DNA of 39,454 nucleotides from a bacterium. GTDB lineage: Bacteria; Myxococcota_A; UBA9160; SZUA-336. Numbering within the stretch: the first letter of the stretch is position 1; each line of letters begins with the position of its first letter. Location: assembly GCA_024226335.1 (NCBI GenBank), contig JAAELY010000295.1, positions 1 through 39,454 on the forward strand, in the 5' to 3' direction. The notes beneath the pieces are model-generated. The model did not search any database. It was given only the letters and a program-made list of their open reading frames with translations, and was not told where the DNA came from. Shown piece after piece: positions 113-18,011 of the stretch. A program made the translations under genes and the position numbers.

Positions 113-1336
113 CTACGCACACCCCGTGCCAGGTACATTCTCCGGACCACAACTAGCGGGCAACCTTAGGCAGAAGCAGGCTCCGGCTCCCGGATCTCCT
201 ACCGCCGAAATCCCGCCTCCGTGCCGCTCCATGATCTTCTTCACCGTTGCCAGGCCAATTCCAGTTCCTTCGAACTCGGACGTCGAAACCAATCGCTGAA
301 AAGGCTCAAACATGCGCTCGGCGTCTTCTTCTTTGAACCCGATACCGTTGTCCTTGCAGTAGATGTTCCAGATCCCGTTTCTCTCGACGCTATAGAAGTG
401 AATTTCCGGTATCGTGTCCTTGCGCTGATACTTCAACGCATTGCTCAGCAGATTCAGAAATACCTGGTACATCAGTGTCTGGTCGGCTTCCAGGGTTGGC
501 AGAGGGCCGATTTCTACAACGGCTCCAGTCTCGTCGATCAATTCCTGGCAGTCTCTGACCACTTCGCCGAGCACGTCACTCAAGTGGGCTTCTTCGCAGT
601 TCAGCGGATTCCGGCCCGCTTTCGCGTAGTTCAAGAGTGTCTTGATCAAGACATCCATTCGCATGGTCGCCTGCAGAATCCGACTGAGGTAGTCCTTTGC
701 GTCGCTGTCGAGTCCTTCCGAGTAGCGTTCCATCAGGAACTGCCCGAACGAACGAATGTGTCGCAATGGAGCTCGGAGGTCGTGGGCGGCCGCGTGGGCG
801 AAGTTGCTCAGTTCGTTGTTGGATCGAGCGAGGCGCTCGTTCATCGCTTCCAGAGTCTGAGCGACTTCATGGTTTCGGGCGGCCAGGTGCTTGTTTTCGA
901 TGGTCTCTTTTCGGAGAGCCCGTTCGCGTCGGCATGAAGCGGTAACGTCATTGATCTCGACGAGGCAGTGGCGCCCGCCTTCAGTGTCGCGTAGCGGTTT
1001 GATCGCAACGGTGTGTTGGATGCGATCGAAATCGTCTGGTTTGTCGCTGACTGTGGGCAGGGGAAACGGAGATTTTCCGAGGTTGCGCGATATCATTGTC
1101 GAGAGTCCGCGGTCCAGCGCTGCCTTGATGCCTCGCTGGACTCTGCTGGATTCCAAGCATGGAAAGACATCGCACAGTTTCGTACCGAGCGCGAACTCGG
1201 CCTCTATCCCCGAGGCGTGTTCTATCCATCGATTCCACAGCGTGATCTGCTGTGAAGGATTCAAGATGATGATGCCCAGATCTGTTGCGTCTAGCGCCGC
1301 GGCTGATAAAGTCGCATCGAGCACGATGTTCACCAT
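113..1336 (-). CDS. PAS-domain sensor histidine kinase
   Basis: Autophosphorylating sensor kinase of a two-component pathway, about 407 residues, with no obvious membrane segment, so probably cytoplasmic. A PAS-like sensor fold occupies roughly residues 10-135 and a coiled-coil linker 140-178. The HisKA dimerisation domain carries the H box HDLRAPL with His near 185. The ATPase domain shows the N box (NLLSNALKYQ), G1 (DNGIGF), F box (FEPFQRL) and G2 (GTGIGLATVKKI). The start is ATG 1336, overlapping the CheC stop as TGATG, which implies translational coupling; a TTG one codon earlier is less likely. With the CheC and receiver genes upstream it forms one signalling operon. The ligand is unknown. 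Confidence 0.93.
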   Translation of the reverse strand: MVNIVLDATLSAAALDATDLGIIILNPSQQITLWNRWIEHASGIEAEFALGTKLCDVFPCLESSRVQRGIKAALDRGLSTMISRNLGKSPFPLPTVSDKPDDFDRIQHTVAIKPLRDTEGGRHCLVEINDVTASCRRERALRKETIENKHLAARNHEVAQTLEAMNERLARSNNELSNFAHAAAHDLRAPLRHIRSFGQFLMERYSEGLDSDAKDYLSRILQATMRMDVLIKTLLNYAKAGRNPLNCEEAHLSDVLGEVVRDCQELIDETGAVVEIGPLPTLEADQTLMYQVFLNLLSNALKYQRKDTIPEIHFYSVERNGIWNIYCKDNGIGFKEEDAERMFEPFQRLVSTSEFEGTGIGLATVKKIMERHGGGISAVGDPGAGACFCLRLPASCGPENVPGTGCA

Positions 1337-1950
1337 CAACCAGTGCGGTGATTCATCCCGGCCAGATAGGTATCGACGTTGCTCATGAGGGCCTGAACTG
1401 AATTTATCCCCATGACGAACGCAACGAAGCCCATGACGTTTCGCTGTTCCAGTCGGAAGTGCATGCGCAGAAACATGACGAGGTCCTGGGAGTCGGATGG
1501 CACCAGTTCCTGGTGGCCACGCGATGCGAACGATGGCAGACCGGTTTCGATTTCGAGGTCGAGGCAGTCTGCGAGCGAACTGATTGTCGCGTTGAGGATG
1601 ATGTTCCCCAACTCACAGAGTGTTTCCTGCTCCATCTCGGTGATGTCTTCGAGGGCGATCTTCTCATCCACGAGCAGACGGGCCAGTTCCAGGCTCTGCA
1701 CTTCGGGAAACAGGAGCAGCGCTTCGCCGCTGAAAGGTCCACCAAAGGATTGACTCACCGAGCCGATGCGCTTCGAGACTTCATTGCCGAGCCGTTCCGC
1801 CAAGCTTTCTGGGGTCAGGAACTCGACCTGAGGGATCGAGAGGAGGACTTCCTCATCGCACATCTCGCTGAGCGAATCCGCTGCGAGTCCAGCTCCGATG
1901 TTGGCTATCTCAGCCAGAGTATCGATCTGATCCTCTGTGAAGTGATACAC
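1336..1950 (-). CDS. cheC: CheC-type phospho-receiver phosphatase
   Basis: CheC/CheX/FliY-family phosphatases dephosphorylate CheY-like receiver domains. This 204-residue protein has the family length and both signature motifs (acidic/Ser-x3-E-x2-N-x22-P). The first uses Glu14, Asn17 and a Pro exactly 22 residues later; the second uses Glu113, Asn116 and again Pro after 22 residues, with Glu instead of Asp/Ser at the leading position. Both active sites therefore look intact. The start is GTG 1950. The gene sits between a lone receiver (stop 1959) and a kinase gene it overlaps, so its likely substrate is the adjacent receiver rather than a flagellar CheY; no other che gene is visible here. Confidence 0.88.
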   Translation of the reverse strand: MYHFTEDQIDTLAEIANIGAGLAADSLSEMCDEEVLLSIPQVEFLTPESLAERLGNEVSKRIGSVSQSFGGPFSGEALLLFPEVQSLELARLLVDEKIALEDITEMEQETLCELGNIILNATISSLADCLDLEIETGLPSFASRGHQELVPSDSQDLVMFLRMHFRLEQRNVMGFVAFVMGINSVQALMSNVDTYLAGMNHRTG

Positions 1951-1958
1951 GGCTCAAC

Positions 1959-2324
1959 TCACTTCAAATCGTCGAAGAATGGCTGCAGTTTTTCGGGCTT
2001 GATGGGTTTGCTGATGAACTGGATCCCAGCCTCTTGCGCCTTCGCTCGGACTGACTTCTGGATGTTTGCCGTCAGGATTGCGATCGGGATCGACGGAAAC
2101 AGTTCTTGCAGCCGTGAAGCCAGTTCAAATCCATCCATCACGGGCATGTTGTAGTCGAGGACGGCGGCGTCGATATGTCCAGCCCCCTCCGCCGCGGCCA
2201 GTCCCTTGGCACCATCCTCTGCTGTCAGGAGGGACCAGTCAGGCAGGAAGTCAGAGGCGATGGCCTCGACCCACGCCCGGGCCGACTTACTGTCGTCTAC
2301 GATGAGAAGAGTCTTGGTTTCCAC
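1959..2324 (-). CDS. Single-domain response regulator (CheY-like)
   Basis: Stand-alone receiver domain of about 121 residues with no output domain. It has the acidic pair Asp10-Asp11 in LLIVDDSKS, the phospho-acceptor Asp57 in LDYNMPVMDG, the switch Thr in AILTAN and the conserved Lys in ISKPIKP. The start chosen is GTG 2324, which has GAGGA 8-9 bp upstream; an in-frame TTG at 2342 would add six residues and lies upstream of that ribosome binding site. It is the first gene of a receiver-CheC-kinase set with spacings of 8 bp and an overlap. Output is presumably through protein-protein contact, as for CheY or Spo0F; the partner is not visible. Confidence 0.9.
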   Translation of the reverse strand: METKTLLIVDDSKSARAWVEAIASDFLPDWSLLTAEDGAKGLAAAEGAGHIDAAVLDYNMPVMDGFELASRLQELFPSIPIAILTANIQKSVRAKAQEAGIQFISKPIKPEKLQPFFDDLK

Positions 2325-2342
2325 GCATTCATCCTCAAGCAA

Positions 2343-2922
2343 AGCACCGGCAGGTGTTTCTTTTCTATCGTCGTCGGCGTGTGATTCTTGAGAAGGTGAT
2401 CAGGTTTCTGCGAGCCCAAGCGCGGGGATAGGGGACTTCCTGCCGGATGCTCACTCTTGGAAAACCGGTCGCCTCAGGCGGCATAAGGGTAGTTCGAACG
2501 AAATTCGCCGCGCCTGGCCCTGGCGCCGAACGGAAAGACCCGCCGCGCAACGCGCAGTGTCAGCGAAACACGCGGGCGACTTTCGAACCTGCAAACGTGC
2601 GCGCGCAGTCATACAGGAACAGAAGGTTCGTCTTGCTGAATCGACGCACCGGGCTTCGGTGTCACGCGTGATGCCGCACAGTTCCGGGTGAATCCGGCTG
2701 TCGGAGAACCGTTGATCGTGCTCCAGGTGACGGCACACGGCGACTCGAGTTCATTGGGCGAGAGATTCTGCGTCGAGGAGCAACGAGTGCCGTGTGTCGA
2801 TCCCGGCCGCGGATGTCTCAGCCAGAGTCTTTGAAACTCGATGATCCCAAGCCTGGACTATCGGGTGTTGGCCTGAACTCGATCCGATGTTTTCGGGCAA
2901 GCCCGCCAACCGGGTGGGGTCT
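2343..2922. other. 580-bp gene-free stretch
   Basis: No reading frame here has family resemblance, plausible codon use and a ribosome binding site together; the short open frames on both strands (up to 95 codons) look random. The segment lies between the lipoprotein stop and the receiver start, so it should contain the promoter of the signalling operon and possibly a terminator for the cyclase-lipoprotein pair. A small inverted repeat GCCTCAGGC lies near 2471-2479, but no T-run follows, so no terminator is called. Confidence 0.5.
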
Positions 2923-3363
2923 TCAGCGGGGGTCGAGCCGGAACAGTACGGCTTCATCGCGCTCCTGAGCGGAAGGCTTCCAGTCGTACTTGCGGGTCAA
3001 CGCTTCGAGGAAGCCCTCGCGGTTCGTCTCCTTTCCGACACGGACCGCCAGGAGTTCGTAGATCGTGTCGCCTACACGCAGCCGCACGTTTGGATCTGCC
3101 TCGATGTGCTCGACCCAGGCTGCCTTGTTTCCGCGACCGGAAGCCAGGAAGAAACTGTCGTCCACCGCGACGCCCCACAGGTTGACCGAGTAGGGCTCAG
3201 AGGGACGCGTTTCGAGCTGAACCGTCATCTCCTCATCCGAGAAGGACCAGTCCTTCGGCGGGCTTGTCGCTACCTCACCCGACAGGCTTCCGCCCGGAAA
3301 TGGGCCCACTGGACCGCAACCGAGTGCGAGAAGCAGTAGAGCGAATGGAAGTGCGTATTTCAT
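2923..3363 (-). CDS. Putative lipoprotein, DUF2255/split-barrel-like
   Basis: A 146-residue protein with a lipoprotein signal: Lys2, a hydrophobic core and the lipobox LALGC with Cys16, so probably anchored in a membrane facing the periplasm. The mature part has a stretch (SVNLWGVAVDDSFFLASGRG followed by NKAAWVEHI and a VRLRVG strand) that resembles DUF2255 or deazaflavin-nitroreductase-like split beta-barrels, which bind flavin or are of unknown role. The resemblance is by eye. The start ATG overlaps the cyclase stop by 4 bp (ATGA), so the two are translationally coupled and may work together. No catalytic residues can be assigned. Confidence 0.75.
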   Translation of the reverse strand: MKYALPFALLLLALGCGPVGPFPGGSLSGEVATSPPKDWSFSDEEMTVQLETRPSEPYSVNLWGVAVDDSFFLASGRGNKAAWVEHIEADPNVRLRVGDTIYELLAVRVGKETNREGFLEALTRKYDWKPSAQERDEAVLFRLDPR

Positions 3364-6790: not shown

Positions 6791-8065
6791 CTAGTAGAGT
6801 TCCCGAACGGTTTCTTCGAACGCCGTCAAGAACAGATCGGCGTGTTCGCGCTGAAAGACCAGGGGAGGGCGGAGTTTTACGACGTTGAACAGGGCGCCCG
6901 CATTGCTGGTCAGGAAGCCCTTTTCCTTCAAGCGGTTGACCACGCGCTTGGAGCCTTCGGGGTCGGGTGCCTTCGTATTGCGGTCACTCACCCAGTCGAG
7001 TCCGATGAACAGGCCGTGTCCTCGGACATCCCCCATGGCCTCACACTCGATTCCGTTGAGGCCATCCCGCAGATAGGCGCCGACTTCGGCGACCTGTTCC
7101 CGAAGCTTCTCGGTCTCGATCACGTCGAGCACGGCCGCACCGACCGCCGCCTGTAACGGACTGGATGCGAAGGTGTTGAAGTAACCCGAACGCTTGCGAA
7201 ACGTGTCGACCAGATCTGCACGTGCCACGACGCCCGCAAGCGGGAGTCCGTTGCCCATGGGTTTTCCCATACTGGCGATGTCCGGAACGAAATCGCTGAC
7301 CTCGTAACCCCACCAACGCCCGCTTCGGCAGAATCCAGCCTGCACCTCATCGGATATGAACAGACCACCGGCGTTGCGGACCAGCTGTGCGGCCCGGGCC
7401 ATATAGCCTTCGGGAATCTTCGGCAAACCCTCGTTGGCGAGTAGCGAGCAGACCAGCATGCCGGCCAGTGGAACGTCTTGTTCGGCGAAGCTCTCAATTG
7501 CGGTCTCGACCTCGGCCAGATAGAGATCGCCCAATTCCGCATCCGACAGACCTTCTTTCAGCGGTCGATAGGTTTGAGGGAAACGGACCGAGCGGATTTC
7601 CGGGTCACTGCGGCCGCCCGCCCAGGTGAGCTTGCCGACCAGAGCCGAGTTGCCGTGGTAGGCGCGATCACTACAGATGATTCCCCGGCCTCCGGTCGCG
7701 AGTCGCGCCATTGCGATCGCGACCTCATTGGCCTCGGTGCCCGAACATGTGAACACGACGCGTTCCAGCGAAGACGCGTGGAGTGCGACCAGTCTTTCCG
7801 CGTAGTCGAGCACGCCTTCGTGCAGATAGCGGCTGTGCACATTGAGCGTCGCAGCCTGGCGTTGCATCGCCTCGACCACCTGAGGGTTGGCGTGGCCGAC
7901 GCACGGCACGTTGTTGTACATGTCGACATAGCGTTTCCCATCGGAGTCGAATAGGAAGACACCTTCGCCCCGCACGATGTGCAGAGGCTCCTCGTAGAAC
8001 AGCGGAGCACCCACGCCGAGGACGCGCTCGCGACGTTCAATCAGTTTCGCTGTCGAGTCCGACAC
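6791..8065 (-). CDS. Class III aminotransferase-fold PLP enzyme, possible phospho-lyase
   Basis: A 424-residue PLP enzyme of the class III (ornithine/GABA/AGXT2-like) fold. Visible signatures are VFTCSGTEANEVAIAMAR for cofactor phosphate binding, the cofactor-contacting Asp in FISDEVQAGFCRSG, and the Schiff-base Lys in SMGKPMGNGLPLAG. Its length fits the AGXT2L/phospho-lyase and omega-aminotransferase groups. The start is GTG 8065 with AAAGGAT upstream. The stop is 2 bp from the start of a small-molecule kinase, so the two form an operon; by analogy with AGXT2L1/2 it may eliminate phosphate and ammonia from the kinase product rather than transaminate. That is inference; an ordinary omega-aminotransferase is the alternative. 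Confidence 0.85.
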   Translation of the reverse strand: MSDSTAKLIERRERVLGVGAPLFYEEPLHIVRGEGVFLFDSDGKRYVDMYNNVPCVGHANPQVVEAMQRQAATLNVHSRYLHEGVLDYAERLVALHASSLERVVFTCSGTEANEVAIAMARLATGGRGIICSDRAYHGNSALVGKLTWAGGRSDPEIRSVRFPQTYRPLKEGLSDAELGDLYLAEVETAIESFAEQDVPLAGMLVCSLLANEGLPKIPEGYMARAAQLVRNAGGLFISDEVQAGFCRSGRWWGYEVSDFVPDIASMGKPMGNGLPLAGVVARADLVDTFRKRSGYFNTFASSPLQAAVGAAVLDVIETEKLREQVAEVGAYLRDGLNGIECEAMGDVRGHGLFIGLDWVSDRNTKAPDPEGSKRVVNRLKEKGFLTSNAGALFNVVKLRPPLVFQREHADLFLTAFEETVRELY

Positions 8066-8136
8066 GGGGGGATCCTTTCGGGCGTCAGAGCCGGACTGCC
8101 AGGTCGTGTTCCCGGCGGACCGGCTGCTCTGCGCGG

Positions 8137-12309: not shown

Positions 12310-12473
12310 GCCCGCCAAGGCAAATACTCATGCGACTCGGACTGTCGGAATAGGGCGCCGAATAAGACGAATAGGGTTGTAAGCTGCTGTTCTCTGGGAG
12401 AATATGCACTCGACAGTCGGACGTTATCCGACTCAGTCGCGCATGGGGTGCGGTTGTCGAATAGTAGTTGGGC
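12310..12473 (+). repeat. Possible degenerate attC-like site (left boundary of cassette array)
   Basis: GTTGGGC at 12467-12473 fits the attC R' consensus GTTRRRY and is the exact reverse complement of the GCCCAAC boxes at 13958 and 16504. The decayed membrane-protein gene starts 14 bp after it, as cassette genes usually do. Upstream, CATGCG at 12329-12334 can pair with CGCATG at 12440-12445, and the 12-mer CAGTCGGACGTT near 12414 also occurs in the attC at 13958. No good R'' box is found; GCCCGCC at 12310 is a poor match. Much weaker than the three other sites. The rest of 12129-12486 holds no gene. Confidence 0.35.
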
Positions 12474-12486
12474 GGTGACAGGATTC

Positions 12487-12804
12487 ATGGATCTCGAATC
12501 TCTTGGCAACCTCGGCGAAATCATCGGTGCTGTAGCCGTGATCATCTCGATTCTGTACTTGGCGAGGCAGCTCAGGCAATCGAATACGGTCGCACGGGCC
12601 GACAGCTAGCGCGTATTGCTGGATACGTATGAGAGCTGGATGAATGCTCTCGCTGGTTGTATCGACATGCCGGGAGGAGGGCAATGGTGGTCGCCAGCGG
12701 GAAGGGCATTCAACAGCGATTTCGTTGATGCCGTCGAGGAAACGCGAGATCGACTGCATGGGTCATATTCCATAACGGAGATGCTTCCCTTCCTTCGGGC
12801 GTGA
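12487..12804 (+). pseudogene. Decayed small membrane-protein gene (probable first cassette)
   Basis: From ATG 12487 the frame encodes a typical N-terminus of a widespread family of hypothetical single-TM proteins: MDLESLGNLGEIIGAVAVII then SILYLARQLRQSNTVARADS. It is stopped by TAG at 12607-12609 after 40 residues. The same frame continues for 64 codons to a TGA at 12802-12804, and that part contains a stretch (GQWWSPAGRAF then NSDFVDAVEE) resembling the C-terminal region of the same family. The middle of the normal protein of about 150 residues appears missing, so this is a gene broken by an internal deletion plus a nonsense codon. It lies between a possible attC boundary and an IS30 insertion. 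Confidence 0.6.
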
Positions 12805-12883
12805 GACGCCTGCCCTGGAGATTGGCCATCGGTCAAGGGGTATGAAGCATTTCGATCGACCCCGTCGCGAACGGCCGTCTGAC

Positions 12884-12900
12884 TTCAAGTTCGAAGTGCA
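12884..12900 (+). repeat. Left terminal inverted repeat of the IS30-like element
   Basis: TTCAAGTTCGAAGTGCA; pairs imperfectly (12/17) with 13933-13949. It is on the transposase stop-codon side, 7 bp outside the stop at 12908. Confidence 0.6.
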
Positions 12901-12907
12901 CGGTTTT

Positions 12908-13861
12908 CTAGGTTCCAAAGAAGCATTCCTCCGGTGTGCGATAGCCGAGCCTCTTGCGAGGTCGGGTATTCAGCCTTTTTGCTATTCGGTCGCAGTCCCG
13001 CTGCGCGATGTGCGCTTGGCTGCTTCTCTTGGGGAGGTATTGGCGGAGCAGGCCGTTGAAGTTCTCGTTGCTCCCTCGCTCCCATGAATGGTACGGAGTG
13101 GCGAAGTAGACCTTCACCGCCGAGGCCTCCTCCACCGAGGCGTAGTCGTGGAACTCAGTCCCGTTGTCCGAGGTCAGCGTTCGGAAGCGGTGTGGAGCGC
13201 GGCGGATAAGCATCCGTAGACGACGACTCATCCCGTACATGCTCCGGTCGGAGAGCTTTCCGATCATGGCGTAGCCGGTCTTCCTCTCGACCAGGGTGGC
13301 GACGCAGTCCTTGTCCTTGCCACCGACCACCGTATCAATCTCCCAATGACTGATGGTTCTTCTCGTCTCGACCGAAGCGGGTCGTTCGGAGATGTGGCGC
13401 TTCCCGGCAAGCCTCCCTCGACTGTCGTAGCTGTTGTGGCGCTTGCGTCTGCGCTTCGTCGCTTGACGGAGGCATCGATACAGCTGTCCTCCATTCTCCT
13501 TGTCTCGCCAGATGTGGATGTAGATCGTCTCGTGGCTGATGGAGAGCTCCCCGCTTAGCTTGAGTCGCCCTGAGATTTGCTCCGGGCTCCACTGTTCTTT
13601 CAGCTTTCGCTCAACGAGAGCAAACTCCCTCTCAGCGAAGTGGCCATTCTGTCGTGATCGAGATCGGCGGCCATTCGTTCGTTCGATGGCCTTCTGTGCT
13701 CGGTAGGCGCCATCCAGGCGAGCCGAGTTCCGGCGAACTTCCCGCGAAATCGTGCTCCGGTGTCGGCCCACGTAGCGAGCGACTTCGGAGTAGTTCCACC
13801 CGAGCCAACGGAGTGCCGCAATCGTGTATCGTTCATCCGAGCTGAGTTGGTGATATGCCAT
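12908..13861 (-). CDS. IS30-family transposase
   Basis: DDE transposase of about 317 residues. The N-terminus has a helix-turn-helix (LSSDERYTIAAL, then NYSEVARYVGRHRSTISREV) that in this family binds the terminal repeats. A second DNA-binding region follows (WSPEQISGRL, ISHETIYIHIW). The catalytic triad sits in HWEIDTVVG (Asp), LTSDNGTEFHDY (Asp) and GSNENFNGLLRQYLPK (Glu). All three residues and the normal length are present and there is no frameshift, so the element may still be active. The start is ATG 13861 with GGGGA about 7 bp upstream; an in-frame start at 13909 has no support. It reads opposite to the surrounding cassette genes. Confidence 0.95.
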   Translation of the reverse strand: MAYHQLSSDERYTIAALRWLGWNYSEVARYVGRHRSTISREVRRNSARLDGAYRAQKAIERTNGRRSRSRQNGHFAEREFALVERKLKEQWSPEQISGRLKLSGELSISHETIYIHIWRDKENGGQLYRCLRQATKRRRKRHNSYDSRGRLAGKRHISERPASVETRRTISHWEIDTVVGGKDKDCVATLVERKTGYAMIGKLSDRSMYGMSRRLRMLIRRAPHRFRTLTSDNGTEFHDYASVEEASAVKVYFATPYHSWERGSNENFNGLLRQYLPKRSSQAHIAQRDCDRIAKRLNTRPRKRLGYRTPEECFFGT

Positions 13862-13932
13862 CAGCGAGTCCCCATTCTTGGTCGTTTGAGGAATCGTGGC
13901 ATTTCCCAACTCAACTCACCTGGGTGCCGTGT

Positions 13933-13949
13933 TGCACTTACTATATGAA
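13933..13949 (-). repeat. Right terminal inverted repeat of the IS30-like element
   Basis: Plus-strand TGCACTTACTATATGAA; its reverse complement matches 12884-12900 at 12 of 17 positions. It is on the transposase start side, outside the promoter region. Confidence 0.6.
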
Positions 13950-13957
13950 TTCGCCTC

Positions 13958-14089
13958 GCCCAACAACGGCATGCAGTCGGACGTTGAAGGGCTCTCTTGC
14001 AATTTCTGCTGTACCGTCTGGTACTAACCTTCTTGGGCTCAGCGCACTCGGCGGCGCCCATCAACGTCGCTGAAGGGCGACCGTTATGT
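13958..14089 (+). repeat. attC-like recombination site A
   Basis: A 132-bp imperfect palindrome with integron attC layout. R'' box GCCCAAC is at 13958-13964 (fits RYYYAAC). The left arm CAGTCGGACGTTGAAGGGC pairs with the right arm GCCCATCAACGTCGCTG around 14056-14072, leaving unpaired bases on one side as attC sites do. The right end GTTATGT (14083-14089) keeps the GTT of R' but deviates at one of the RRR positions. The interior around 14013-14055 is similar to sites B and C. The next gene starts 57 bp after it. Confidence 0.7.
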
Positions 14090-14146
14090 GGCAGGGGAGC
14101 ACCTCGAGGAGAAGCCTCGATCGGAGCTCGGTAGTGGAGGCGGTCT

Positions 14147-15454
14147 GTGAATCGCCCCCTGCGCCGGTGGAACCGCAGGTGGATTCTGTGGGCCGCGGCT
14201 ACGACTGCCTTGATCGCCACGGGCTCCACAATGATGATGGTCGCCCACCGATCTGGGCGTGCCCGGGAACGGATTCTCCAGAGACCGGCGGCGGCTGCGT
14301 TCTCGGTCGAGTCGCTCGAGCGCGACGTCGCGACGTACGACCGGCTTGGCCCGCACCGAACCGGCACCGACGGAAATCTTTCAGCGGCTAAGTGGCTCGA
14401 GTCGGAGTTCGCAGGTCTCGGGTACCGCGTGCGGATCCAACGCAGGAGCATACCGACCTATCTCGTAGATGAAGCCTTCGTGGAAGTCCGAGGCGAGCGA
14501 ACCCAAGCCTTTCCTCAGTTCCCCGTACCACACCCCGACGCGCATGAGCGCGTGGGCACGTTGGGAGAGCAGATCCCGATACTCCGAATTCCGAATCGGC
14601 TCACCAACAACTCGCTCGCTCAAGCACAGCTGCAAGCGAGGATCCGAGGGGTAGCTGCATCGGGCGCGAAGGCCGTCATCCTGGAGGTGGCCGGCGCCTG
14701 CGGCTATATCAAGACGCTGAACGCGCCCCTCGGCCTCGAGCCCTGGGATGTGCCCGTTCTGCTCGTGGCGGGAGGGGACGCGGAGCGGCTCGCCCTCCTC
14801 GGAGAACAGGCCGAGACCGCTCGCGTGCGACTCATGGGCCGACACACAATGGTCGACAGCATCAACATGATTGCAGAGATCGGTCCGGCCAGTGCCTCCG
14901 CCATCGTGGTGTCTACGCCGCTGAGTGGCTGGTTTCACGCCACCGCTGAGCGCGGCTCCGGGATTGCGGCCTTTCTTTCAGTCGCGCGATGGGCCAGTGC
15001 CGAGCATGGTAGTCGGCGCTTCGTCTTCACAGCGAACTCCGGACACGAACTCGGTGACGCGGGCGCCCATGCCTTCCTCGAATCCGAGGCTCCGCCCCCC
15101 GAGCGGACGCAGCTCTGGCTCCATATCGGAGCGAACATCGGCTCGCGCGATGGCGAAGAGCCAGACCGAGCCAGCTCTCGTCGCTTCCTCATGAGCAATT
15201 CATCGGTTTTGTTTCGCACCTGGGCTGCGTTTCGCGGACAAAGCCTCGTCGGTCCGGTACCGCTCGCCTTTGGCCTCGGCCGTGGCGAGCTTGCCGCCTA
15301 CTTCGACGCTGGATACCGACCCGTCCTGGGTGTATTCGGAGCTGGACCGTTCCACCATTGCGTCAACGACCGATTGCCCGCGGTGCATCTCGAGGCGACC
15401 CGAGGCGTGGCTTTGGGCTTTGCCACGTTAGTCGAGACTCTCACCAGTCGCTGA
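14147..15454 (+). CDS. M28-like membrane-anchored protein, probably non-catalytic (cassette gene)
   Basis: A 435-residue protein with a basic N-terminus and one hydrophobic segment (about 13-32), so membrane-anchored or exported. The N-terminal part has the usual M28 aminopeptidase entry (GPHRTGTDGNLSAAKWLESE) and a PA-like middle region. The core keeps the general fold (SGIAAFLSVARWA, FVFTANSGHELGDAG), but the zinc ligands are missing where expected: the HxD position reads STPLSGWF and the GxDDNxSG loop reads AERGSG. A peptidase function is therefore doubtful. The start is GTG 14147 with GGAGG 6 bp upstream. It is bounded by attC-like sites A and B, so it is read as an integron gene cassette. 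Confidence 0.75.
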   Translation: MNRPLRRWNRRWILWAAATTALIATGSTMMMVAHRSGRARERILQRPAAAAFSVESLERDVATYDRLGPHRTGTDGNLSAAKWLESEFAGLGYRVRIQRRSIPTYLVDEAFVEVRGERTQAFPQFPVPHPDAHERVGTLGEQIPILRIPNRLTNNSLAQAQLQARIRGVAASGAKAVILEVAGACGYIKTLNAPLGLEPWDVPVLLVAGGDAERLALLGEQAETARVRLMGRHTMVDSINMIAEIGPASASAIVVSTPLSGWFHATAERGSGIAAFLSVARWASAEHGSRRFVFTANSGHELGDAGAHAFLESEAPPPERTQLWLHIGANIGSRDGEEPDRASSRRFLMSNSSVLFRTWAAFRGQSLVGPVPLAFGLGRGELAAYFDAGYRPVLGVFGAGPFHHCVNDRLPAVHLEATRGVALGFATLVETLTSR

Positions 15455-15483
15455 CCCGGGTCCGCTCGGCGCGCGAGCGTGCC

Positions 15484-15616
15484 GACCAACCAGGGGATGA
15501 AACCGGACGTTGAATCGCTCGGTTCCGAATACCGCGGTACTGTCTGGCATCAACCTTTTCAGGCTCGGCGACGTCGGCGGTGCTATTCAACGCCACTTAT
15601 CGCCGATTCGTTAGGC
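15484..15616 (+). repeat. attC-like recombination site B
   Basis: A 133-bp imperfect palindrome beginning 30 bp after the M28-like gene. R' is a perfect GTTAGGC at 15610-15616. R'' at 15484-15490 reads GACCAAC, one mismatch from RYYYAAC. The arms GGACGTTGAATCGC (about 15504-15517) and GCTATTCAACGCC (about 15582-15594) pair with one bulged base and one mismatch. The interior (TACTGTCTGGCATCAACC, then GGCTCGGCGACGTCGGCGG) is close to site A in sequence and position. It is the best-formed right end of the set. Confidence 0.75.
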
Positions 15617-15723
15617 GCCGCGCGTATCGCCAGGAATCAGACCGGGGTGCGAAAGCCGGTTCGCTTGCACCCGATTCTAGTGACATCTATTATGCCAACG
15701 ACGATCAAGCGGAGATGGCCACG

Positions 15724-16341
15724 ATGAACACGAGTCTGAAGTCCCTCAAAGAGCTGATGCAAGAAGCGCTTGGCGAGGGGGGCGTTCTCGTCTCCGGCCT
15801 CCGAGGGAAGTACATGGAGATCTCGGAGTCTGCCAACCGCATGGTCTGGATGACCCGCTCCCCAGTCGAGCAGAGCGATTTCGAAGCGCTCGAAGTGGAC
15901 GCATCCTACACCAAGAGCGGAATCGGACAGGCTTCGATGGACCGTGCCGGCTTTCGACATTCACCCGACCGCGCCGAAGAACCGGTGCGGGAGAGGGAGA
16001 TCGGCGGTCATCACTTCATCAACGTGGCCTCGCCACTCGAGATGAAACCCCCCTCTCTGACAGCTGGCCCGATGACAGCCCTCGTCAACAAGGCCCACGT
16101 CCTCGGCTTCGCCGCGGGCCGCAGGCTCGCGATCCTGACGACACCCGAAGGCGATTTCGTCGAGGTGGTCGGAGACGCAAGCGATGATGCTGGTCGGGTT
16201 CTTCCCGAAGGCGGCGAGTTGAATGAAATCGTTTTGAAGGATCCCTGGGTCGTCTCCCTCCCCACTCCGACGCGAGCCTTCTTCTGGTGGCAGGGATCCA
16301 TTCGGAGCTTTCAAGGTCCTGTGACGCTTCCAACCTCGTAG
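15724..16341 (+). CDS. Hypothetical protein, 205 aa (cassette gene)
   Basis: I do not recognise this protein. It is soluble, with no signal peptide or membrane segment. Residues 1-20 form a predicted amphipathic helix (SLKSLKELMQEAL), followed by a strand-rich body with several turns (GGHHFINVASPLEM, LAILTTPEGDFVEVVGDA) and a C-terminal FFWWQGSIRSF motif. ATG 15724 is preferred because GGAG at 15711-15714 is 9 bp upstream; ATG 15715 in the same frame abuts that site. It lies between attC-like sites B and C with its start 107 bp after R', fitting a one-gene cassette. Orphan proteins of this sort are typical of chromosomal integron cassettes. Confidence 0.65.
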   Translation: MNTSLKSLKELMQEALGEGGVLVSGLRGKYMEISESANRMVWMTRSPVEQSDFEALEVDASYTKSGIGQASMDRAGFRHSPDRAEEPVREREIGGHHFINVASPLEMKPPSLTAGPMTALVNKAHVLGFAAGRRLAILTTPEGDFVEVVGDASDDAGRVLPEGGELNEIVLKDPWVVSLPTPTRAFFWWQGSIRSFQGPVTLPTS

Positions 16342-16503
16342 GCCCGGGTCGGCGAAGCTCAGGGCACCACCACTCAGTTCCACGCGAATTCTCGGATCAC
16401 CTGGTCGGGTCGGTTGCCCGTGTGCTTTCCGATTTCGACGCTGACCCGCGTAGGGGTACAGGCGTTCTGTCTATCCCCAACGGAGACCCGCGGCGGGGCC
16501 GCC

Positions 16504-16622
16504 GCCCAACACGAGCTTGCAGTCGGACTCGGCAACAGTCAGGCATTTCGACCTTTGGTAGAATCTGGCATCAATCTTCGGAGCCTCGGCGAGCCGGTCA
16601 GCGCTGTTACCAGCCGGTAGAC
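16504..16622 (+). repeat. attC-like recombination site C (degenerate)
   Basis: A 119-bp site with R'' GCCCAAC at 16504-16510, identical to that of site A, followed by TTGCAGTCGGACTCGGC, close to the left arm of A. The interior (TCTGGCATCAATCTTCGG, then GCCTCGGCGAGC) aligns with site B. The right end reads GGTAGAC at 16616-16622, one change from GTTAGAC, and the arms pair poorly. It is likely a decayed attC. The phosphotransferase gene starts 26 bp after it. The 162 bp between the preceding stop and this site hold nothing recognisable. Confidence 0.6.
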
Positions 16623-16648
16623 GCCGATCGGTTGGACGGCTTCAGGAC

Positions 16649-17587
16649 ATGGTCAGCGCCCAAGAGCAGCATCCAGCAGATTCGACCACAAAGACGACGC
16701 CCAGTCCGGTCATCCACTCGGTGGTGCGGTCCGTCTGCGGCAGCGAGGTCGAGCGGCTCGTTCGCCTCACCGGTGGCGGCATGAACGAGGCGTACCGCGT
16801 CGAGGTTCCCAAAGACATGCCGGTCGTCGTCCGGATCGCGCGTCAGCCAGTGGCGTGGTTCACCGACGAGGAGCACGTCATGGCGCAGGCGCGTGGTGTC
16901 GGCGTGCCCACGCCGGAGGTGCTCGGCGTCGAGCAGGTGGATCACGACGGGGAGCTACTGTCGTTCTCGATCCTGCGATTCGTGCCGGGCCGCTCGCTCG
17001 ACCAGCTCGCTGGTGAGCTGTCGGCGTCGGATCTCGAGCGGTTGGTCATGGACAGCGGCGAGCTCCTGGCACGGTTGCATAGCGTCGTCCCCGACCGGGG
17101 CATTCGGCACGAGCTCGAGCCGCCCGGGGAGCGCTTCGTCGCCCGCGTGGTGGGTGTCGCCGAACAGGCGCTTGGTCCGGCGGCGGCCGCGGTCGTCGAG
17201 CGCGGTGCTGAGCTCCTCCGTGACGAGGTGATGACCCGTCCAGCGCCCAGACTCTCGCTCGCTCACGGCGACTGGTTGCCCAAGCACTTTCTGATCGACG
17301 ACGGGGCGCCGATCGTTGGCGTTATCGACTGGGAATTCGCCGGCCCAGCGTCGCCGGCGTTCGACCTCGCCCATTGGGAGGTGGCCGCTGGCGATGCCCT
17401 GCGCGACCGCTCGGACCTGCTGCGCCGCGGGTATACGCGGGTCGCCGATCCCGACGCAGCCGACGCCGGCTGGGTGCCAGCGTTTGCCATCGACTTCGCC
17501 CTCGAAGTGCTCGGTTGGAGGAACCCTGCTCCACCAGCGAGGCTCCGGCGCTGCGTGGACGTGATCGCCCGCTATGTCGGCGCTTGA
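16649..17587 (+). CDS. Aminoglycoside phosphotransferase-fold kinase (possible cassette gene)
   Basis: A 312-residue APH/choline kinase-fold protein. The N-lobe has the nucleotide loop LTGGGMNEAYRVEV and the hinge SILRFVPGRSLD. The catalytic loop is LAHGDWLPKHFLIDD with His206 and Asp208, and the metal Asp lies in GVIDWEFAG near 227. The usual Asn of HxDxxxxN is His213, a variant seen in some APH relatives. It could phosphorylate an antibiotic (aminoglycoside, macrolide) or a metabolite; sequence alone does not decide. It follows attC-like site C, but no attC follows it: its stop is directly adjacent to a redoxin-gene remnant, so either its attC was deleted or it is not a true cassette. Confidence 0.85.
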   Translation: MVSAQEQHPADSTTKTTPSPVIHSVVRSVCGSEVERLVRLTGGGMNEAYRVEVPKDMPVVVRIARQPVAWFTDEEHVMAQARGVGVPTPEVLGVEQVDHDGELLSFSILRFVPGRSLDQLAGELSASDLERLVMDSGELLARLHSVVPDRGIRHELEPPGERFVARVVGVAEQALGPAAAAVVERGAELLRDEVMTRPAPRLSLAHGDWLPKHFLIDDGAPIVGVIDWEFAGPASPAFDLAHWEVAAGDALRDRSDLLRRGYTRVADPDAADAGWVPAFAIDFALEVLGWRNPAPPARLRRCVDVIARYVGA

Positions 17588-17812
17588 CCGAATCACGGTC
17601 TGGTCGGAAGCTATCTCGTTTCCGGCGAGGTCCGTTGGCAGGCCTGCGACGACGATGTCTGCGATATCCCGGCAAGCCAGCGTTTCGAACTCGAACTGCC
17701 CGTGGCGGAATCGCCCGCGGTCGCCCTCGGGAGGAAGAAAGGCGCGGCCCTAGAGCCCAACGCGATGCTGCATTTTCAGCGAATGTCTGAGCGGCGGGGC
17801 GGTACCGCCTGA
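17588..17812 (+). pseudogene. 3' remnant of a redoxin/DsbD-like gene
   Basis: Directly after the phosphotransferase stop, the same frame stays open for 74 codons to TGA 17810-17812. It encodes a recognisable C-terminal segment of DsbD-alpha/redoxin-type proteins: GEVRWQACDDDVCDIP followed by FELELPV, where the CX4-5C pair matches the thiol-carrier cysteines of such domains. There is no start codon with a ribosome binding site, and the N-terminal part is absent. The gene was most likely truncated when the accessory segment arrived or was partly deleted. This gives the right-hand junction of the accessory region. The next 199 bp up to 18011 hold no gene I can support. Confidence 0.6.
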
Positions 17813-18011
17813 GCTCCGCTCAGTCCCGCCGGGTTATCAACTCCCGAATGCCGTTGGGCGCGATATCCAAGACGGCTGCGCGGGAGGCTGTCCGGGCTGC
17901 AACGGGTCTACTGCACCTGAAGGGGCGGGGCTTCACAGCCAGGCGAATGGAGCCACCTGGATCGGGTACCGGGGACTCTCGATCGGCACGTTCCTTGCGA
18001 GGTCCCCGCGC

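Follow-up and report, generated by a model that had tools for sequence, protein, structure and literature searches.

Integrons are usually described as having one attI site per integrase. Recombination by the integrase (IntI) is established to take place between attI and the folded bottom strand of an attC site (PMC9892861, in the part available to us). A sedentary chromosomal integron combines an IntI of family TIGR02249, an attI, cassettes consisting of an open reading frame (ORF) plus an attC, and attCs that are similar within the genome. A cluster of attC sites lacking integron integrases (CALIN), as defined by IntegronFinder, has at least two attCs and no integrase gene (intI) nearby. The stretch of DNA analyzed here, hereafter the window, is bases 1–39,454 of contig C295 (JAAELY010000295.1) of genome G000 (GCA_024226335.1; lineage Myxococcota_A), and from position 12310 it carries what is almost certainly an integron cassette array headed by an attI and lacking an integrase gene. 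The features of the sedentary chromosomal integron recur in G000, but here attI-headed arrays lie on several contigs, with one intact intI in the genome and none in cis at the window. With three attCs and no intI within it, the window also falls under the definition of a CALIN, but its array starts with an attI copy, which is invisible to counts of attC and intI alone. We consider it probable that the window holds an attI-headed, integrase-less array and that it and other scattered attIs are used, or were used in the past, in trans by one IntI.

Two further systems share single traits with this one. In Treponema-type integrons, as described in the accessible portion of PMC3607928, intI likewise points to attI and runs in the cassette direction; unlike them, genomes with the type reported here have two to six attI copies each. 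In the deltaattI-type cassettes of class 1 and 2 integrons, an attI takes the position of attC, as at contigs C181 of genome G011 and C204 of genome G054, but the cases in the accessible part of PMC12901181 are attI1 fragments of 14–18 nt and one complete attI1, whereas ~80–115 bp or more are present here. Among the open-literature matches listed, none describes, in its accessible parts, a genome with several attIs for one integrase.

An attI Copy at the Head of an Integrase-Less Array

A preliminary description of the window recognized three related attC-like sites and proposed an integrase-less attC cluster of a resident integron. That proposal is supported, with intI on contig C341 and attC copies elsewhere in the genome (contigs named without a genome belong to G000). 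What it overlooked is the attI that heads the array, position 12310 being the left end of the attI module, and the six genome copies of that module. The sites are as follows:

12310–12469, + strand: predicted orphan attI module, homologous to a stretch on C341; crossover GTT at 12467–12469
13958–14089, + strand: attC1, 132 bp; R'' GCCCAAC, R' GTTATGT
15484–15616, + strand: attC2, 133 bp; R'' GACCAAC, R' GTTAGGC
16504–16637, + strand: attC3, 134 bp; R' GTTGGAC at 16631–16637

Limits and boxes of attC1 and attC2 are those first given. For attC3, GGTAGAC (16616–16622) had been taken as the right box, giving 119 bp; this was wrong, and the site measures 134 bp because R' lies at 16631–16637.

The assembly of G000 comprises 556 contigs (5.75 Mb; completeness 97.4%, contamination 3.7%). 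In it, the search for intI proposed earlier yielded one full-length integron integrase, at C341:42140–43084. It scores 458 bits against TIGR02249 (cut-off 265) over positions 1–315, its full length. Of solved structures, IntI4 (entry 2a3v, E 2e-91) is its best match, and in the alignment with it all the catalytic residues appear to be kept. Among the best 80 of 513 relatives, IntIs reach at most 62% identity. The gene is transcribed toward its attI: directly 3' of it, and again at the head of the window array, lies a stretch of ~160 bp that ends in GAATAGTAGTT. Judged from its sequence, window 12310–12469 is a copy of this attI. The product of the first cassette past the attI of C341 (L017:7294–7731) resembles TIR proteins (PF13676, 27.0 bits against a cut-off of 28). 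The window itself has no integrase, as had been stated: the best tblastn match of IntI has an E of 0.48, and the 3 kb upstream of the window attI contain no IntI similarity, so that no complete integron was found in cis.

Six attI Copies in One Genome

A DNA search found the attI module six times in G000, on C295 (the window), C138, C240, C341, C79, and C247. The copies of C138, C240, C79, and C295 are 84–94% identical to that of C341 (the window copy 84%), and C247 shares only the last 78 bp of the module. A profile built from six attIs of other genomes recovers all six, the window copy at E 1.6e-12 and C247 at 2.6e-5, and the six cluster in a tree (support 0.87). Similarity among them stops at GTT or at most eight bases from it, and the downstream sequences differ; the only longer downstream similarity is a piece of 72 nt common to C240 and C79, which is part of an apparent second attC type (see below). 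Across five of the copies, 7 of 60 columns adjoining the crossover are variable versus 34 of 99 farther off (Fisher p 0.0014). An intact intI stands beside the attI of C341 and two intI fragments beside that of C138. No trace of intI is present in 3 kb upstream of attI at C240, C79, and C295, and none was detected at C247, where only 248 bp of upstream sequence are available. On C79 and C247, more than 8 kb past attI are without a match of the window attC type.

Because the left ends of pairwise similarity vary, they are alike rather than exact, and we rejected the notion of the module as a unit with one exact left end. Among the copies of G000 these ends fall at −138 to −170, excepting C247 and the pair C138/C341; elsewhere they fall at −146 to −156 in the best pairs, at −113 for G011:C181, and as far as −280 where G061:C405 keeps more. 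A promoter candidate noticed by eye in the module was dropped, and no promoter is claimed there, because a consensus scan gave it no support.

The attC Sites of the Window and the Genome

The claim of three related attC-like sites was confirmed both by profiles from which the window sites were withheld and by covariation of the arms. A covariance model (R1) was made from eight attCs, the three of the window and five from C138, C459, and C545, and a search of 36 loci from G000 and other genomes with this model yielded 33 sites at E ≤ 1e-4. A profile hidden Markov model of 30 attCs, without those of the window, finds the three window sites at E 1.7e-28, 4.6e-23, and 8.5e-17, and one of 19 attCs, all from other genomes, finds them at E 2.4e-25, 2.3e-20, and 1e-12; the rows of both were selected via R1, in which three of eight sequences are window sites, and their selection is not wholly independent. 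Both profiles return identical borders for the three sites; E rises to 0.13 and 0.49 for the next-best window matches, and stays at 1.3 or above in 20 windows resampled with a first-order Markov chain.

In the 33-site alignment, which was fitted to the structure, covariation between the R and L arms is 0.409 versus 0.161 when shuffled (reached in 0 of 500 shuffles). The best slid register gives 0.085, and 14 of 18 pairs have changed on both sides. The eight-site alignment, which was left unfitted, gives 0.282 versus 0.141 (0 of 500). In both alignments the L helix has two unpaired columns on one arm only, the feature of extrahelical bases. The arms thus pair R with L and bear extrahelical bases on one side, as in attCs, and on sequence evidence the three window sites are real attC sites. 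The bottom-strand folding check proposed earlier came out weak for the single window strands, whose folds are considered below. The consensus of the attC boxes is RYYYAAC for R'' and GTTRRRY for R', and attC3 agrees with both. A box-and-fold scan overlooked all three window sites, two of which deviate from its box consensus; it returned a hairpin at 17755–17859 and a probable false match on C341. At gathering scores Rfam has no match in the window, although the presence of an attC family in Rfam was not checked.

Further copies of these sites, for which a search had been proposed, are present as well: the 33-site model finds at least 15 attCs at E ≤ 1e-4 over ten contigs of G000 (one of only 58 bp), a lower bound because 150 of 3536 candidates were scored. 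Two overlapping weak matches occur on C176. The loci read in context were those of the window, C138, C459, and C507, and not those of C545, C95, C52, C542, C116, and C344. In the arrays read, an ORF stands before every attC that has preceding sequence (two attCs on C138, two of three on C459, and one on C507, by eye). Among the cassette genes of C459 are one for a methyltransferase and one with weak nucleotidyltransferase matches. The preliminary description had named repetitive extragenic palindrome (REP)-like or miniature inverted-repeat transposable element (MITE)-like repeats in noncassette settings as the finding that would speak against it. This was not seen: across attI-bearing loci, 24 of 24 attC matches at E ≤ 0.01 lie downstream of attI and in cassette orientation.

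A second attC-like type, ~190 bp long with R'' followed by ACCTATCAGGCCCCCGGTTGTCAATAG, occurs after ORF stops on C240, C79, and C507 (L025:1–200, L026:7709–7912, and L073:19–160, all on the minus strand), and a piece related to it precedes the attI of G011:C181. A group II intron as the origin of the repeat of C240 and C79 was rejected, because Rfam matches only C507 and on all three contigs the repeat comes after the stop codon of an ORF; it looks like the second attC type. The group II intron itself (RF00029, RF02012; with a long ORF) is on the minus strand of C507 (L073), at 997–3171, directly past an attC, ahead of a cassette gene and on the cassette strand.

The Same Type of attI in Related Genomes

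Genomes of the class (90) and of the phylum (377) were scanned with an attI model (R2) of 12 attIs and 79 nt. Six of the eight genomes found to be positive had supplied its sequences, so a match of the best copies in those six is built in; their further copies, and those of G052 and G054, are independent of the training. In the class, 8 of 90 genomes have the attI type at E ≤ 1e-3, with 6, 4, 3, 3, 3, 3, 2, and 2 copies (26 in total), and the scan of the phylum at E ≤ 1e-4 returned the same eight (8 of 377). These totals are uncertain by a few because the four weakest calls (G027:C8a and C8b, G054:C204a and b; 28–32 bits) may be partly wrong and an extra weak match (27.8 bits) exists at G027:C20. 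The latter, outside the 26, lies after a second, broken intI that belongs to the cognate clade.

Four of the 26 attIs adjoin an intact intI, three adjoin remnants (C138; G080:C67, 50 aa at 80%; G061:C405, 44 nt at 82%, E 2e-5), and for 19 none was found, of which 17 have ~3 kb of unbroken upstream sequence. From two to six copies in eight of eight attI-positive genomes, and 19 of 26 without intI, the window array therefore belongs to a recurrent kind of orphan, attI-headed array. By position beside intI, similarity that ends at G|TT, and cassettes that follow, the sites at C341, G061:C164, G011:C187, and G027:C51 are probably attIs; in these four genomes the model begins 103–117 bp past an intact, inverted intI, and their IntIs form one clade (support 0.977). 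The IntIs of G025 and G052 were rejected as partners of the orphan attIs there, being outside this cognate clade, as are two partial intI pieces of G052 by best score. Of the 22 attIs with no intact intI next to them, 11 have a correctly oriented attC downstream (E ≤ 0.01), and several of the other 11 are followed by just a few hundred bases of sequence.

At G011:C181 and, by weak matches, at G054:C204, the element after an ORF is an attI where an attC would be expected, in the manner of deltaattI. In the former, read by eye, an R''-like box contains the stop codon, and the beginning of a second-type attC continues into attI; in the latter, two attI matches, both weak, lie ~800 bp apart on one strand. 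Between intI and attI there is a long inverted repeat, with arms of ~25 bp in G011 by eye (L188 ~8010–8070 and L187 ~680–740), and the orphan attI of G061:C153 shares little of its left arm. The TIGR02249 cut-off is exceeded in 37 of the 90 class genomes, and among the class loci read, both layouts of intI relative to attCs are present.

Genes of the Window Array

In the window, the order of gene then attC is repeated in a single orientation, with a broken first cassette that contains an IS30 gene on the opposite strand. The remaining parts are:

12487–12801, + strand: first-cassette gene, broken by an in-frame TAG at 12607–12609 (sequence read)
12908–13909, − strand: IS30-family transposase gene within the first cassette (NF033563, 286 bits, cut-off 80)
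14147–15454, + strand: second-cassette gene, 435 aa; no family above cut-off
15715–16341, + strand: third-cassette gene; no family found
16649–17587, + strand: phosphotransferase (APH family) gene after attC3 (PF01636, 100 bits, cut-off 23.2)
17755–17859, + strand: weak candidate for a fourth attC of another type, 105 bp, GCCCAAC ... GTTGGGC, from the box-and-fold scan

Neither piece of the broken first gene has a Pfam match. ATG 15715 is the likelier start of the third gene because its ORF is open from GTG 15580, which is inside attC2. The APH-family gene is perhaps a fourth cassette. The bottom strand of the hairpin that follows it folds with z −2.3, and R1, R3, and the attC profiles do not match it. 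An N-terminal pattern seen by eye, LGxIGxxxxxxAVxxTLxYLAxQxRQ, recurs in proteins of cassette genes in the window (12487–12606), at L071:447–911, and in G052:C202 and G054:C204a. Three times such a protein is encoded by the first cassette after an orphan attI, and the two tested have no Pfam family.

Possible Past or Present Use of the Scattered attIs

If attIs are used in trans, the scattered copies are, or were until recently, substrates of the IntI of C341, which would pair the folded bottom strand of a cassette attC with double-stranded attI, with exchange at G|TT. Orphan attIs would arise when the attI region is copied with or without intI and intI is then lost, and in a few cases attI may have travelled as the right end of a cassette. 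Traces of both routes exist: stages in which a copied whole integron loses its intI, at C138, G080:C67, G061:C405, and G027:C20, and attI in place of attC at the end of an ORF. We judge past use in trans by one IntI most likely, and present use perhaps, because orphan attIs are better kept beside the crossover. That the IntI of C341 still serves them today has, in our estimate, slightly less than an even chance. More doubtful is a distributed integron in the full sense, with one integrase, several attI platforms across the chromosome that each have their own first cassettes, and an attI unit that spreads, partly as ends of ORF–attI cassettes.

Several observations weigh against use in trans. 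The window array is partly decayed, with a nonsense codon, an IS30 insertion, off-consensus boxes (R' of attC1, GTTATGT, at position 5; R'' of attC2, GACCAAC, at position 2), and weak folds. As single sequences the bottom strands of its attCs fold with z −1.7, −0.7, and 0.1, and the top strand of attC1 folds no worse than the bottom (z −2.2); bottom strands of attCs from C138 and C459 reach −3.2 and −3.9. A consensus scan of the window's attI region found no promoter, and no intI of the cognate clade was found in G025, G052, G054, and G080, which hold 12 attIs. Conservation on the crossover side can also come from gene conversion, and the differing first cassettes could predate the loss of intI. 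All genomes are fragmented assemblies, and the tetranucleotide correlation of own contigs with the window flank, 0.45–0.64 (0.22 for one array piece), overlaps that of other genomes, 0.34–0.55.

Much of this would also be expected of a relic, that is, the remains of a second integron after loss of intI, with attI and attCs out of use. The broken first gene, the insertion, the folds and boxes, the decaying intI genes at the four loci named above, and the four genomes with orphan attIs in which cognate intI was not found make it a serious rival, possible in our view if not the likelier account. It sits less well with the better conservation of the crossover-adjoining stretch relative to the rest of attI, with four of six own copies that lack any intI trace (three with 3 kb upstream) while attI is still 84–91% identical to that of C341, and with the differences downstream of the own copies. 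Off-target insertion by IntI is one named origin of CALINs (PMC8618304, accessible part), and an IntI in the genome with no intI in cis would suit a plain CALIN of cassettes inserted at chance sites; chance target sites would lack the full attI module with which the window array begins, and we regard this origin as hardly credible. An artefact of assembly or binning, by which orphan attIs are foreign or intI was lost at contig breaks, is only marginally less improbable: the number of contigs, the contamination, and the overlap of tetranucleotide correlations speak for it, but upstream sequence is unbroken for ~3 kb at 17 of 19 orphans without intI, several attIs occur in each of the eight genomes, and the own six group together in the tree. 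Use in trans by one IntI, past or present, is thus the reading that we prefer.

Use of orphan attIs in trans would mean that a cell could keep several first cassettes beside an attI at once, and that part of the attC clusters supposed to be dead are working platforms. The genomes described here provide natural stages, from integron to integrase-less array to attI-bearing cassette, and the attI model detects platforms that searches for intI and attC leave unlabelled.

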